NCBI RefSeq assembly: GCF_001610835.1 | Contig: NZ_CP011270.1 | Span: forward strand, 5,412,001-5,476,000 | From: Planctomyces sp. SH-PL14 | Lineage (GTDB): Bacteria > Planctomycetota > Planctomycetia > Planctomycetales > Planctomycetaceae | Direction of reading: 5' to 3' | DNA: 64,000 nt | Part shown: in pieces, positions 9,591 through 31,461 of the stretch | How the letters are laid out: each line of letters begins with the position of its first letter | Numbering within the stretch: the stretch's first letter is position 1 | Notes under the pieces: generated by a model | Told to the model about the DNA's origin: nothing | Database searches by the model: none | Seen by the model: only the letters and a program-made list of their open reading frames with translations | Made by a program: the position numbers and the translations under genes

Positions 9591-9715
9591 GAAGACCGGC
9601 TGAAGTGTTCGTGCAACGTACCCGCGAAGTGAGAGCAATGCAAGAAGTGAGTTTGGGAATGAAGATCGTCCGTGGCATACGGAAATCTAAAGCGCAACCC
9701 GTTCACCGGGTCCAG

Positions 9716-9817
9716 GGGCACCCTGGTGGGGGAGTGCAGAGGGGCGAGGGAGGCGGAAGGGGTTCAGGCTGAAGGCGGAAGGTAGAGCGGCGCGACTCTG
9801 GATCGTTTGGCCCTGTT
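9716..9817 (-). repeat. H320 right-end remnant plus about 70-bp extension
   Basis: Bases 9716-9745 are the terminal hairpin and start of a second H320 right end. They are followed by about 70 bases (9748-9817) that are not part of the core repeat but reappear, inverted, right after copy 4 (15573-15642). This gives copies 3 and 4 a longer shared unit. Confidence 0.75.
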
Positions 9818-25633: not shown

Positions 25634-25831
25634 TTAAGCGGGTTCCGCGCCCGGCTTTTCGGCGGACGGTCCCGCCTTGATCGCCTGACAGAGCTCCTCG
25701 CGGACGATGTTCATATCCCGCGGAGCGTCGATCCCGATCTTCACTGTGTTGGGACCGATCCGGACCACCGTGATCGCGATGTCTTCGCCGATCAGGATCC
25801 GCTCACCAGCCTTGCGTGACAACACCAGCAT
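25634..25831 (-). CDS. csrA: Carbon storage regulator CsrA
   Basis: CsrA is a small dimeric RNA-binding protein that binds GGA motifs in mRNA leaders and changes translation or stability. The 65-residue sequence MLVLSRKAGERILIGEDI...IGIDAPRDMNIVREEL is typical, with the conserved R-E pair in the RNA-binding edge strands (R6, E46). The frame stays open upstream to 26215, but only the ATG at 25831 gives a normal CsrA. The purine-rich AAGGAAAGGGG before that ATG serves as ribosome-binding site and holds a GGA, so autorepression is possible. Confidence 0.95.
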   Translation of the reverse strand: MLVLSRKAGERILIGEDIAITVVRIGPNTVKIGIDAPRDMNIVREELCQAIKAGPSAEKPGAEPA

Positions 25832-26232
25832 GGCCAACCCCTTTCCTTGACGGGGAGTGCCGCACTCGGCTCGAGGACCAGAAAACCATTTCTGAGGGCT
25901 AAAGCGCCCGGAAAACTCGAACCGCTGGGCACCATCCTGACGCAATCGGGAAGCAATACAAGGGGCAGACCCAATCCAACCCGCATGAATCAATCTGACT
26001 GCGTTATCAAAAGGATAACGGCACGCCCCCGCAACGCCAGCCCAATCCGGCGCAATTTCCAGCGGCCAATTTTCCAACAGCCCAAAACTTGAGCAGTGGC
26101 GATCGGTGCCTGCTTTTTGAGCAGCTGGCGGCGACTGGAACTGGTTTAGCTGCACTTGGTGTGCAGGTGTCGGTGGTCCGTCCGGCAGTTTGTGCCTGCT
26201 GGGCCCCTGTTCCATCGGCTATCCTGTTTCCC
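25832..26232. other. Intergenic region upstream of csrA and the ABC permease
   Basis: About 400 bases separate the divergent csrA and permease genes. The clearest structure is a 7-bp inverted repeat, CGTTATC-AAAAG-GATAACG, at 26002-26020, which could be an operator or a small hairpin. I see no convincing sigma70 promoter and no complete gene. Open frames here give atypical protein sequence. Confidence 0.45.
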
Positions 26233-27066
26233 ATGCCCCAGGAACAACCTTTCCGCCCGAATTACCGGCGCGTCTGGCTGACGTGTCTGAAGAATTCCTT
26301 TGCGCGCGAACTGTCGTTCCGCGGGAACTTTCTGATCGAGCTGTTCACGAACGCGTTCTGGATCACGTCGCAGGTGCTGCTGTTCGAGATCATCTACGCG
26401 AAGACGCCGGGTGTGGCGGGGTGGACGCGGGAGCAGTACATGGGGTTTATGGGGACGGGGCTGTTGATCAATGCCCTGGTCGAGTTCTTCTTCATGCCCA
26501 ACTGCGCGAACTTCAGCGAGCTGGTGCGGACGGGGAATCTGGACTTCCTGCTGCTGAAGCCGATCGACACGCAGTTTCTGGTGTCGCTGCAGTCGGTGGA
26601 TCTGGGGGTGATCTCGGAGATTGCGGGGGCGGCGTTGCTGTTGGGGTATTCCGTGATTTACTCGGCGGGGTCGATCACGCTGATGCAGGTGGTGCTGTAT
26701 CTGTTGCTGGTGGCGGTGGCGGTGGCGTTTTACTACAGCCTGATGATTGCGCTGGCGAGTACGGCGATCTGGCTGGGTCGGAACCAGACGGTGTATGAGT
26801 TCTGGTTCTACATCACGGTGTTTGGTCGGTATCCGTCGAACATTTACCGGCAGCGTCCGCTGGGTGAGGTGATCTGGTTCGGGTTCTCGTTCATTGTTCC
26901 GATTCTGGTTGTGGTGACGGTTCCGGCGCAGGTGCTTCTGGGGAAGGTGTTGGAGCCGAATCGGTGGATTCTGGTGGTGGCGCCGTTGGCTGCGGTGGCG
27001 GGTTTGTTTTTGTCGAGGCGCGTGTTCAACACGGCGCTGGCGAGTTATCGCAGCGCGAGCAGTTAA
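26233..27066 (+). CDS. ABC-2 family transporter permease
   Basis: A 277-residue integral membrane protein with about six helices, for example VISEIAGAALLLGYSVIYSAG, LMQVVLYLLLVAVAVAFYY and the last IFGFSFIVPILVVVTVPAQVL-like segment. It resembles the ABC-2 (DUF990, PF06182) permeases, which normally work as a pair of permeases with one ATP-binding subunit. No ATPase or second permease is next to it, so its partners must be elsewhere or missing. The start is the ATG at 26233 (MPQEQPFRPNYRRVW), just before the cytoplasmic N-terminus. H320 copy 7 begins 28 bases after its stop. Confidence 0.85.
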   Translation: MPQEQPFRPNYRRVWLTCLKNSFARELSFRGNFLIELFTNAFWITSQVLLFEIIYAKTPGVAGWTREQYMGFMGTGLLINALVEFFFMPNCANFSELVRTGNLDFLLLKPIDTQFLVSLQSVDLGVISEIAGAALLLGYSVIYSAGSITLMQVVLYLLLVAVAVAFYYSLMIALASTAIWLGRNQTVYEFWFYITVFGRYPSNIYRQRPLGEVIWFGFSFIVPILVVVTVPAQVLLGKVLEPNRWILVVAPLAAVAGLFLSRRVFNTALASYRSASS

Positions 27067-27093
27067 ACCGCGCGTTACTGGCGGCTCCAAGAT

Positions 27094-27272
27094 CCGGGGT
27101 CCAGGGGGGCACCCCTGGTGGGGGATGCAAGGGGGCAACGCCCCTTTGCCCGCCGGAGGCCCGTCTCGTAGGGGATTTTCTGAAGGAGCACTTGTCCAAG
27201 CGCGGACGCCGTGCCGGATGCCCCCCACACCAACCCGCTCTGATTCCAGGCCGAGCTGTGCAGGGAAACCGG
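27094..27272 (-). repeat. H320 repeat copy 7 (right half only)
   Basis: Right half in minus orientation. The terminal hairpin is lengthened on both sides to CCAGGGG-GGCA-CCCCTGG and the inner hairpin is GGGGC-GTT-GCCCC. The similarity fades near 27272, without the left half. It faces copy 8 as an inverted partner. Confidence 0.8.
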
Positions 27273-27570
27273 GTTCTCATCGCAGGCATCTTCTCGTTGG
27301 AGTTCATGCTTCGGCGTGCCCCGCTGGCGTCGTCCGCTCGAAGACCACCCGGTAGGCAGCCTGAAGCATGAGCTCCAGCGCCGCCCCCCTTCTTCAACAC
27401 CGGCCGCCGCCAGGAAGTCCCGCCAGGGACGGCCGAAAATAGCCCACCCTTTCAAGGGTGGGTCTCAGGTCCCGTTCGCCGGCGCAGTCCCGTCAGGGAC
27501 GAAAGAACTCCTCTCCGCGGAACCACGACGCAGCGCGGCACACAAATAAGAGGAGCACTCCCTGGCGCGA
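27273..27570. other. Intergenic segment with REP-like palindromes
   Basis: This segment lies between two inverted H320 half copies. It holds three compact palindromes: GTCCCGCCAGGGAC (27417-27430), the 9-bp hairpin CCCACCCTT-TC-AAGGGTGGG (27443-27462) and GTCCCGTCAGGGAC (27487-27500). The order GTCCC-GGGAC followed by AAAATAGCCCACC hairpin resembles REP units linked to RAYT (IS200-like) transposases. No transposase gene and no coding sequence are visible. Confidence 0.6.
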
Positions 27571-27730
27571 CAACGCTTGCTCTGCACTCAAGGCGGGTTG
27601 ATGTGGGGCATCCGGCACGGCGTCCGCGCTTGGACACTCACTCCTTCAGGCATCTCTCGACGGCCAGGCCTCCGGCGGGCAAAGGGGCCTTGCCCCTCTG
27701 CACTCCCGACCAGGGGATCCCTGGACCCGG
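27571..27730 (+). repeat. H320 repeat copy 8 (right half only)
   Basis: Right half in plus orientation. Centre hairpin GCGTCC-GCGCTT-GGACAC, inner hairpin AGGGGC-CTT-GCCCCT, terminal hairpin CCAGGG-GAT-CCCTGG with a different loop. It lies 118 bases before the GH2 start codon. It is the only copy whose right end faces the start of a gene. Confidence 0.8.
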
Positions 27731-27847
27731 TTGGCTGACAACGATAGCGCCCGCCTCCCCATCGCTGGGCAGAACACTCCCCCATCTGCCAAGATGCCCC
27801 TCCACTTCCCCCGGACCAGCTCGTTCTCGCTCCGATCGAGGTCTGAC

Positions 27848-30274
27848 ATGCGAATCATCGCCGCACTCGCGCTCCTCCTCTCGCTCCTCCCCGCCCCCCT
27901 CCCGGCCGAATGGAAACCGGCCGACTCACCACTAATGACCCGCTGGGCCAAAGACGTCCGCCCCGGCGCCGTCCTCCCCGAATACCCCCGCCCCCAACTC
28001 CGCCGCGACGCCTGGCAAAACCTCAACGGACTCTGGGACTACGCCATCACCGACCGGAAAGCCGGCCTCCCCACCCAATGGGACGGCCAGATCCTCGTCC
28101 CCTTCGCCATCGAGTCCGCTCTCTCCGGCGTCAAAAAACGCCTCGAACCCAACCAGGCCCTCTGGTACCACCGCACCTTCACTCTCCCCCAGACCGACGC
28201 CTGGAAAGACCGCTCCATCCAGCTCCACTTCGGCGCCGTCGACTGGGAATGCGACGTCTACCTCAACGGCCAGCGCGTCGGCGGCCCCGACGCCCACCCC
28301 CACCGCGGCGGCTTCGACCCCTTCACCCTCCGCCTCGACGGCCCCGGCGCCACCCTCAACCGCACAGGCGAAAACCACCTCGCCGTCCGCGTCTACGACC
28401 CCAGCGACGACGCCCCTCAGCCCCGCGGCAAACAGGTCCGCAAGCCCGAAGGGATCTGGTACACCCCCGTCTCCGGCATCTGGCAGACCGTCTGGCTCGA
28501 ACCGGTCCCGGAAACCTACATCCGCGGCGTCAAGTTCACCCCGGACCTCGACGAGATGGCCATCTCGGTCCAGCTCGACGTCGTGAACCCCAAGCCCGGC
28601 ATGAAAGCGGGGATCTTCGTCCGCAGCCTCCCCAACGGAGTCTCCGGGGTCTTCGCCAAGTCGTGGCACATGGAGCTCGACAAGCCCTTCGTCATTGAGT
28701 GCTCCAAGTTCAGCGGCAAGTTCGGTCAGCCGGACCCCAAGGATCTCAAACCGCACCTCTGGAGCCCCGACCACCCGCACCTGATCGACGTCCTGGTCGG
28801 ACTGGTCGAAGACCCCAAGGCGGACCTCGGAGGCTTTGGGAAGGATTGGACGGCCAAGCTCGACGTCCCCGGCGAGGACAAGAACGTCCCTGCCGTCGCC
28901 CTCGTCGACTCCGTCCAGAGCTACACCGCCCTCCGCAAAACCGCGGTCCAGAAGGACGAGCGGGGGATCAACCGGATGTTTCTCAACAACGAGCCGGTCT
29001 TCCAGTTCGGCCCGCTCGACCAAGGATGGTGGCCGGACGGGCTCTACACCGCCCCGACCGACGAGGCCCTCAAGTTCGACATCGAGGCGACGAAGGAACT
29101 GGGCTTCAACATGGCCCGCAAGCACGTGAAGGTCGAGCCGGACCGCTGGTACTACTGGTGCGACAAGCTTGGCCTCCTCGTCTGGCAGGACATGCCCAGC
29201 GGCGACCGCAACATCAACCCAAACGAGCCGGACCACCAGCGGACCGCGGAGTCCGAGGCGATCTACCGCCGCGAGTGGGAGGCGATCATGAAAGCCCTCC
29301 ACAACCACCCGTCGATCGTCGTGTGGGTCCCGTTCAACGAAGGCTGGGGCCAGTTCAAGACGAACGAGATCCTGGAGTGGACGAAGAAGCAGGACCCCTC
29401 GCGCGTCGTCGACGGCCCCAGCGGCTGGGCCGACCGGGGCGAAGGGGACATGCATGACATGCACCACTATCCCGGCCCGTCGATGTTCCCGGTCAGCGAG
29501 AAGCGGGCCACCGTCCTCGGCGAGTTCGGCGGCCTCGGCCTCCCGGTCGAAGGGCACACCTGGCTCCAGAAGGGGAACTGGGGCTACCGCTCCTTCGAGA
29601 ACAAGGAAGCCCTGACGGCGGAGTACGACCAGTTCATCGCCCAGCTCCCGATCCTGATCGGCGAAGGTCTGGCGGCGGCGGTCTACACCCAGACGACCGA
29701 CGTCGAGATCGAGGTCAACGGCCTGCTCACCTACGACCGTGCCATCTACAAGATGGACCCCAAGCACGTCGCCGAGACGAACCGCGCCGTCTACGCCCCC
29801 CCGCCGCGGGTCAGCACGCTCGTCCCGACCTCCGAGGAGAAGCCGCAGGAGTGGTCCTTCACCACGGACAAGCCGGCCGACGGCTGGGAAGCGGCCGACT
29901 TCAACGCGTCCGGATGGAAGAAGGGCCCCGGAGGCTTCGGGGCTCTCAACCCGCCGGGCTCGAAAGTCCGCACGACATGGGACACGAAGGAGATCTGGGC
30001 CCGTCGTGAGTTCGATCTCCCGGCCGCGGAGGTGGAGAACCTCTGGCTCCGGATCCATCACGACGAAGACACGGAGATCTATCTCAACGGCAAGAAGATC
30101 GGGGAGACCCACGGCTACACGACGCGCTACATCCAGATCCCCGCGATCGCCGGCAGCGGCAAATCGCTCCGGCCGGGCCGCAACGTCCTGGCAGTCCACT
30201 GCCGCCAGACGGGAGGCGGCCAGTACATCGACGTCGGGCTCCTGGACGTCCGGAAGGAAAGTCCGGCCCGCTAG
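27848..30274 (+). CDS. Glycoside hydrolase family 2 protein (beta-galactosidase/glucuronidase-like)
   Basis: A secreted 808-residue glycosidase with signal peptide MRIIAALALLLSLLPAPLPA. The GH2 order is complete. A sugar-binding jelly roll (about 60-220, WYHRTFTLP, VYLNGQRVGG) and an immunoglobulin-like domain (about 220-370) lead to the TIM barrel with acid/base E498 in PFNEGWGQ and nucleophile E559 in LGEFGGLG. A further jelly-roll-like domain at about 670-800 (WARREFDLP, EIYLNGKKIG) could bind carbohydrate. Family members hydrolyse beta-linked Gal, Man or GlcA, and the exact specificity cannot be read from sequence. The start is the ATG at the signal peptide, not the in-frame codon at 27731. 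Confidence 0.93.
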   Translation: MRIIAALALLLSLLPAPLPAEWKPADSPLMTRWAKDVRPGAVLPEYPRPQLRRDAWQNLNGLWDYAITDRKAGLPTQWDGQILVPFAIESALSGVKKRLEPNQALWYHRTFTLPQTDAWKDRSIQLHFGAVDWECDVYLNGQRVGGPDAHPHRGGFDPFTLRLDGPGATLNRTGENHLAVRVYDPSDDAPQPRGKQVRKPEGIWYTPVSGIWQTVWLEPVPETYIRGVKFTPDLDEMAISVQLDVVNPKPGMKAGIFVRSLPNGVSGVFAKSWHMELDKPFVIECSKFSGKFGQPDPKDLKPHLWSPDHPHLIDVLVGLVEDPKADLGGFGKDWTAKLDVPGEDKNVPAVALVDSVQSYTALRKTAVQKDERGINRMFLNNEPVFQFGPLDQGWWPDGLYTAPTDEALKFDIEATKELGFNMARKHVKVEPDRWYYWCDKLGLLVWQDMPSGDRNINPNEPDHQRTAESEAIYRREWEAIMKALHNHPSIVVWVPFNEGWGQFKTNEILEWTKKQDPSRVVDGPSGWADRGEGDMHDMHHYPGPSMFPVSEKRATVLGEFGGLGLPVEGHTWLQKGNWGYRSFENKEALTAEYDQFIAQLPILIGEGLAAAVYTQTTDVEIEVNGLLTYDRAIYKMDPKHVAETNRAVYAPPPRVSTLVPTSEEKPQEWSFTTDKPADGWEAADFNASGWKKGPGGFGALNPPGSKVRTTWDTKEIWARREFDLPAAEVENLWLRIHHDEDTEIYLNGKKIGETHGYTTRYIQIPAIAGSGKSLRPGRNVLAVHCRQTGGGQYIDVGLLDVRKESPAR

Positions 30275-30435: not shown

Positions 30436-31461
<1,026 letters not shown>

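Follow-up and report, generated by a model that had tools for sequence, protein, structure and literature searches.

BIME/REPIN and other intergenic repeats bear hairpins and are present in high copy. A Y1 transposase gene between inverted repeats, accompanied by gene-less copies and by single and dimeric repeats, is known as a TIRtron or TIRYT, and REP dimers nested inside other palindromes have been described as well (PMC3733652). Among Y1 transposases, the Y---Q--HH motif marks TnpA-Y1 subclass 1.2, which is reported mostly from Cyanobacteria and Bacteroidetes and generally without typical terminal structures (PMC6006769). Acido-Lenti-1 was published as a candidate RNA (PMC2864571), and its Rfam family, RF01687, has the type sRNA gene; it has been classed among small RNAs since 2010. 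It is mentioned in passing in PMC10059132 and PMC13298647, the latter a 2026 paper in which its copies are said to be possible regulators of nearby protease genes. Nested REP dimers, Y1 genes between inverted repeats and Acido-Lenti-1 as a candidate RNA are thus already in print. The literature searched on Acido-Lenti-1, TIRYT and planctomycete repeats, largely without subscription papers, yielded no link between Acido-Lenti-1 and a transposase, and the accessible text of PMC3733652 makes none.

The locus described here lies in the window, a stretch of 64,000 nucleotides (5412001-5476000 of the single 8.44-Mb contig of Planctomyces sp. SH-PL14), where two inverted half copies of the repeat H320 enclose a short segment, the inside. 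We read it, with a probability of about 0.6, as a nest of two repeat systems, in which an Acido-Lenti-1 transposon end lies in the centre of an H320 and a second right half arrived, likely by deletion. The wider reading is held with the same confidence: Acido-Lenti-1 would be the terminal inverted repeat of widespread subclass-1.2 Y1 transposons that insert one-way in the centre of a thousand-copy repeat and so yield half-repeat composites.

Anatomy of the composite locus

An H320 profile made from 30 oriented seed copies recovered both right halves, inverted and with their right ends outward, as an earlier note on this DNA had described them. The features of the locus are as follows, in window coordinates.

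26089-27066, plus: neighbour gene for an ABC-2 family permease (Pfam PF06182; longest frame), with its stop 25 bases before the composite
27092-27286, minus: left arm, H320 right half (nhmmer, model 157-335, 130 bits), outer end toward the ABC-permease gene
27296-27312 and 27363-27379, no strand: inner palindrome IN_A with imperfect 17-bp arms, read from the sequence
27409-27511, plus: solitary Acido-Lenti-1 unit resembling a transposon end, consisting of palindrome P1, a linker with ATAGCC, the core hairpin and palindrome P2 (custom profile, 94 bits)
27416-27462, minus: match to Rfam RF01687, Acido-Lenti-1 (cmscan 42.9 bits, gathering score 37, E 2.3e-06)
27417-27430, no strand: P1, GTCCC-GGGAC palindrome, read from the sequence
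27443-27462, no strand: core hairpin with a 9-bp stem, read from the sequence
27487-27500, no strand: P2, GTCCC-GGGAC palindrome, read from the sequence
27571-27739, plus: right arm, H320 right half (nhmmer, model 172-341, 151 bits), outer end toward the GH2 gene
27848-30274, plus: neighbour gene for a glycoside hydrolase of family 2 (GH2; Pfam PF02837/PF02836), its assumed ATG 108 bases after the composite
30436-31461: DUF1559/N-methylation protein (PF07596)

The family PF07596 is typical of planctomycetes. On the minus strand, a longer open frame ends in a CsrA domain (window 25634-26215). The gap between the arms is 284 bases in H320 profile coordinates, and home-made gene calls placed no gene within it. 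The earlier account of the inside, some 300 gene-free bases with GTCCC-GGGAC palindromes and a 9-bp hairpin, was borne out, with two such palindromes; it had not included IN_A.

By score (42.9 against 37 bits) the unit belongs to RF01687, and this was the sole gathering-level Rfam match in the window. The earlier note had also raised the insertion of a REP-like unit into an H320. This is supported by the recurrence of the inside at other H320 loci described below. The palindromes lack the GTAG REP tag and belong to an Acido-Lenti-1 unit. Identity with GTAG REP/RAYT was rejected on the finding of neither GTAG nor its complement in 27409-27511. CGTC REPs, which have an unpaired CGTC tag, a stem of 8-9 bp and a CCA-like tail (PMC3733652), were likewise rejected, the stems of P1 and P2 being 5 bp long with GTC taken into the stem.

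The H320 repeat and the origin of the two arms

H320 lies between genes, is rich in hairpins and has roughly a thousand genomic copies; it is almost absent from the relatives searched. Its 15-base core occurs 983 times genome-wide, and the same letters read backwards do not occur. In the 2.056 Mb examined with the profile (24% of the genome, made up of the window and further stretches) there were 333 matches, comprising 234 full copies, 68 right halves, 22 left halves, 3 tails and 6 others, where the counts of halves include split copies. Among 29 other genomes from the same family and class, 28 had no match to the exact core and one had a single match; a full copy had no match at E 1e-5 in 60 other family genomes, and the left-core pattern had none in the GTDB collection, from which the source genome is possibly excluded. 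Only 18 of 188 matches in 1.256 Mb overlapped a home-made gene call, and nearly all others could be placed between two called genes; the 112 placed full copies lay a median of 15.5 bp from the left-side gene and 41.5 bp from the right-side gene. Among gaps of at least 200 bp in this DNA, H320 was present in 46 of the 79 between convergent genes, 77 of the 193 between co-directional genes and 25 of the 91 between divergent genes. Direct repeats indicative of target-site duplication were in no excess at 224 full copies relative to shuffled pairings, so that H320 lacks this feature of a MITE of a classical (DDE) transposon.

The hairpin of the right half, parsed in 139 of 188 matches, contained 122 A-C mismatches (G-U on the other strand) and 5 G-T mismatches; this excess supports a folded minus strand only weakly because a few inherited variants account for most of the mismatches. 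Long ORFs were present in the stretches that separate four distant left and right halves. Half copies were much commoner at 5.18-6.04 Mb (78 full, 40 right, 11 left and 3 other in 856 kb) than at 1.0-1.4 Mb (49 full, 4 right and 3 left in 400 kb). A AACAACACAG-like loop insert was present in the left hairpin of two copies (L071:2011-2350 and L083:9315-9648), and a similar one, in the same orientation, in the right hairpin of two others (L064:5029-5369 and L106:14142-14484), a sequence pattern that suggests exchange between hairpins. Some full copies have a second right-end tail 66-68 bp beyond them (5391613, 5421697, which is window 9697-9747, and 6000165).

Four outward right-right pairs less than 700 bp apart were found in the 2.056 Mb, with gaps of 167, 208, 284 and 642 bp, and a fused arrangement of right half, Acido-Lenti-1 and right half (L016) is extra to these; among close pairs in the same DNA none was left-left. 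One pair (5411772/5412175) lies across the left edge of the window, with other palindromes between its halves. In the pair with the 642-bp gap (5920099/5920909), a 187-aa ORF lies between the halves, which may be half-copies separate from each other.

The recurrence of outward right-right pairs where no left-left pair was seen, together with the excess of right over left halves (68 vs. 22), would be expected if the right half were a self-spreading unit, two of which landed head-out around Acido-Lenti-1 as REP dimers do. Right halves begin at many points, however, mostly at model positions 114-206 and with no single edge, and 234 of the 333 matches are full copies; we regard such spreading as unlikely. 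Breakpoints scattered in this way, and not at one base, also count against the nested reading that we prefer, as does the lack of the left-left composites that a route by deletion or inversion predicts.

The two arms in the window are 0.82 identical, the median for right-half pairs taken at random being 0.84, and the arms of all four right-right pairs are 0.78-0.82 identical against the same median (171 segments, 1.256 Mb). As partners, the window arms rank 96 and 123 of 170, and the ranks across the four pairs are 73-146; each arm has closer relatives elsewhere. Identity to the corresponding arms of L002, a second composite described below, is 0.79 and 0.79, and crosswise 0.83 and 0.84. That the arms are not close kin argues against fold-back copying and against the spread of a single composite, unless these events are old. 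Fold-back copying during replication would have made one right half as an inverted copy of its neighbour. The halves of H320 have an inverted stretch of about 33 bp in common that could permit strand switching, and the composite folds well relative to shuffles (z -14.7, 20 shuffles), which is expected of any long inverted repeat, but at none of the four pairs are the arms closest relatives and we consider this origin very improbable. Equally little weight is given to the composite as one mobile element copied whole with the right ends as its terminal repeats. The order of right half, inside and right half is common to the window and L002, their insides are related and their Acido-Lenti-1 units are 93% alike; nevertheless, their corresponding arms are no closer than random ones, full H320 copies have no target-site duplication and the inside is gene-free.

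The composite is a rearranged nest and not a self-duplication, which agrees with the earlier description of a composite or rearranged element, the same inside being present at other H320 loci. Judged from sequence identity, the divergence of the arms fits a joining of halves from two different H320 copies, for example by deletion. The earlier proposal of a deletion product of two full copies would fit arms that are not closest relatives. Related genomes were compared, as the note had advised: the permease was present in 25 other genomes, where flanks of about 1.5 kb contained neither tested neighbour gene nor either repeat, and scanning GTDB with the permease gave no confirmed relative. With neighbour genes and repeats not found beside the permease in these 25 relatives, no empty site could be read; nor could an intermediate, since the genomes searched included no second member of the genus.

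Acido-Lenti-1 units beside H320 right halves

Acido-Lenti-1 had at least 37 matches genome-wide among the 150 scored of 1703 first-look candidates, of which 27 were above the cut-off and several formed inverted pairs. With the custom profile, the 2.056 Mb gave 30 units spread over 23 sites, none of them at 1.0-1.4 Mb. Of the 33 Rfam matches in this DNA the profile missed six. One of these (6185821) exceeds the cut-off; the other five score below it and coincide with places of a second, CCTGGGGC-type variant. The 2.056 Mb contain eight sites of this variant, and at three of these an H320 right half is no more than 400 bp away. Pairs consist mostly of two unlike units, the one adjacent to H320 being nearly always of one type, and gene-less pairs are arranged left-minus, right-plus, as at Y1 transposase genes. 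The CCTGGGGC type, which is the variant of the Y1 gene described below, also forms pairs with core starts 113-118 bp apart (5196307, 5533620, 6038424, 2394681, 4508846 and 4999911). Acido-Lenti-1 units, too, were clustered at 5.18-6.04 Mb, where H320 halves abound.

An H320 right half is found within 400 bp at 17 of the 23 sites and within 150 bp at 14. Random placement over the free intergenic bases of the 2.056 Mb gave means of 1.2 and 0.9 and maxima of 5 and 4, respectively, in 1000 runs each. None of the 23 sites was near a full copy where 2.8 were expected, a difference that is not significant alone. Among the six Rfam matches missed by the profile, only 5000027 is near a right half, and the combined tally becomes 18 of 29. 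The orientation of the unit relative to the right half was identical at 16 of the 17 sites, the exception being a weak unit (5805098). At seven sites, one of which (6073323) is weak, the Acido-Lenti-1 unit has the right half on one side and a whole or partial left half on the other, so that it is in the centre of an H320 there.

A search for other composites with the same inside, also advised in the earlier note, was successful. L002 (5318928-5319543) consists of a right half, IN_A, Acido-Lenti-1 and a right half and is a second composite of the window's kind, and L006 (5.7826 Mb) consists of a left-half piece, Acido-Lenti-1, IN_A and a right half. IN_A-like stretches accompany the Acido-Lenti-1 unit at both loci and were also present at 4832911 and 6063922. 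The note had reasoned that the pairing would be chance if the inside were unlinked to H320 everywhere else; this does not hold, as L002 and L006 share the inside, although six of the 23 Acido-Lenti-1 sites are away from H320. The pairing of H320 halves with this inside is not chance, as indicated by the recurrence of the inside with H320 and by the placement test. The idea that two old right halves and a REP-like unit came to lie together by chance could draw on the density of H320 (333 matches in 2.056 Mb) and on the six sites away from it, but these two results speak against it and leave it barely credible.

Where Acido-Lenti-1 lies beside H320 in this genome, it does so as single ends or gene-less pairs. 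On the nested reading, the H320 centre would be a preferred, single-orientation place for Acido-Lenti-1-type units, and these units would be the terminal inverted repeats of small transposons with a Y1 (HuH, IS200-like, subclass-1.2) transposase. From the nearly fixed orientation and position, we infer that the transposase directs Acido-Lenti-1 pairs or ends into the H320 centre in a strand-specific manner. At the present locus, one Acido-Lenti-1 end and a second palindrome may have entered the centre of an H320. The left half would then have been lost at some sites and replaced, at two or three of them, by an inverted right half, which here probably came from a different H320 copy. The likeliest route would be a deletion between two H320 copies whose right ends pointed outward, with breakpoints in their palindrome-filled centres.

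Y1 transposase genes, Acido-Lenti-1 flanks and described systems

The genome contains two Y1-transposase (PF01797) genes. The strong one (6246554-6247006) lies between two inverted Acido-Lenti-1 variant units that score 32.1 and 24.7 bits, below the gathering score of 37, and the second (L198) has no RF01687 match. The GTCCC-type variant of the window flanks neither gene, the strong one carrying the CCTGGGGC variant; having no transposase gene of their own in this genome, GTCCC-type units would be orphans or served in trans, which counts against the nested reading.

Acido-Lenti-1 was present in 78 of 294 genomes of a phylum-wide sample, and 18 of the 78 were taken for a test of Y1 loci, in which 30 of 180 matches were scanned, the best-scoring foremost. 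At E values up to 0.05, RF01687 was found inverted on both sides of the gene at 13 of these 30 loci; a further five had it on one side only (L208 with the orientation reversed), and 12 lacked it. Both flanks reached the gathering score at eight of the 13 two-sided loci. Assuming at most 200 units per 6.5-Mb genome, chance would place units on both sides of roughly fewer than 0.01 of 30 loci. All 14 genes with Acido-Lenti-1 on both sides (the 13 and the one in this genome) have the Y---Q--HH motif, and HuH and WQ motifs were found as well, as judged from motif reading.

The Y---Q--HH signature was present in 26 of 32 Y1 genes, counting three near-matches (L206, L210 and L225). Inverted flanks scoring above 39 bits, a line chosen after the scores were seen, accompanied 23 of the 26 signature genes, four of them without an Rfam match on either side, and three signature genes had none. 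No such flanks were found at 25 permease control loci (best 24.7 bits), three of which (L124, L137 and L138) had flanks cut at misplaced positions where contigs end early, or in 26 cross-locus pairings (best 38.3 bits). Two of six non-signature genes also had inverted flanks above 39 bits, made of different-looking repeats. Where it was read, the order within the flanks was mostly the same, namely palindrome, linker with TAGC, core hairpin and palindrome. These rates say nothing about subclass 1.2 at large because the genomes were picked for having Acido-Lenti-1.

Acido-Lenti-1 could instead be a true small-RNA gene, its closeness to H320 and to Y1 genes being secondary; its authors presented it as a candidate RNA (PMC2864571), in keeping with the Rfam type. 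A small-RNA gene does not readily account for many dispersed copies per genome, often as inverted pairs, or for units placed as the inverted flanks of Y1 genes, and we find this explanation decidedly doubtful. The 'sRNA' Acido-Lenti-1 is, from its sequence context, best read as a transposon end that lies in one orientation at the H320 centre. Such a reading would call for care over Acido-Lenti-1 as a regulator of protease genes, and an RNA family of unknown function becomes a testable part of a transposon. Subclass-1.2 Y1 transposases gain a candidate substrate; Acido-Lenti-1-like flanks would supply the terminal structures that the subclass is generally reported to be without (PMC6006769). 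One means by which half-copies and composites could build up would be a host repeat that serves as an orientation-specific place for another repeat family. As a local rearrangement, the composite is of modest interest; the identity of its inside is of more value.

Compared with described systems, H320 is like BIME/REPIN in being intergenic, hairpin-bearing, high in copy, partly arranged as inverted halves and placed beside gene ends. It differs in its length of about 320 bp, its near absence from the relatives searched and its lack of target-site duplication or a cognate transposase that could be found. The window unit scores over the cut-off of the Acido-Lenti-1 RNA family (RF01687; PMC2864571), but in contrast to the candidate RNA as published, Acido-Lenti-1 is here a dispersed, often paired DNA repeat and a flank of Y1 transposase genes. 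With TIRtrons/TIRYT and REP dimers (PMC3733652) the present case shares a Y1 gene within inverted repeats and nesting in palindromes, and family units were found as inverted Y1 flanks at 13 of the 30 loci and at one of the two genes here, the latter below the gathering score. The 26 examples of PMC3733652 were, however, placed in subclasses 2.1, 2.2 and 2.5, not 1.2, by PMC6006769. TnpA-Y1 class 3 resembles the present case in its distribution in Planctomycetes and Acidobacteria and in its atypical flanking structures in high copy (PMC6006769). It was considered as a partner because of these phyla and rejected on motifs, since its Y motif (Y----Q) and W motif (W[TA]) are unlike those of the genes found here. 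Subclass 1.2 (PMC6006769) has the Y---Q--HH motif found in all 14 two-sided genes, and in contrast to the subclass as reported, most of the genes here have hairpin-rich inverted flanks.
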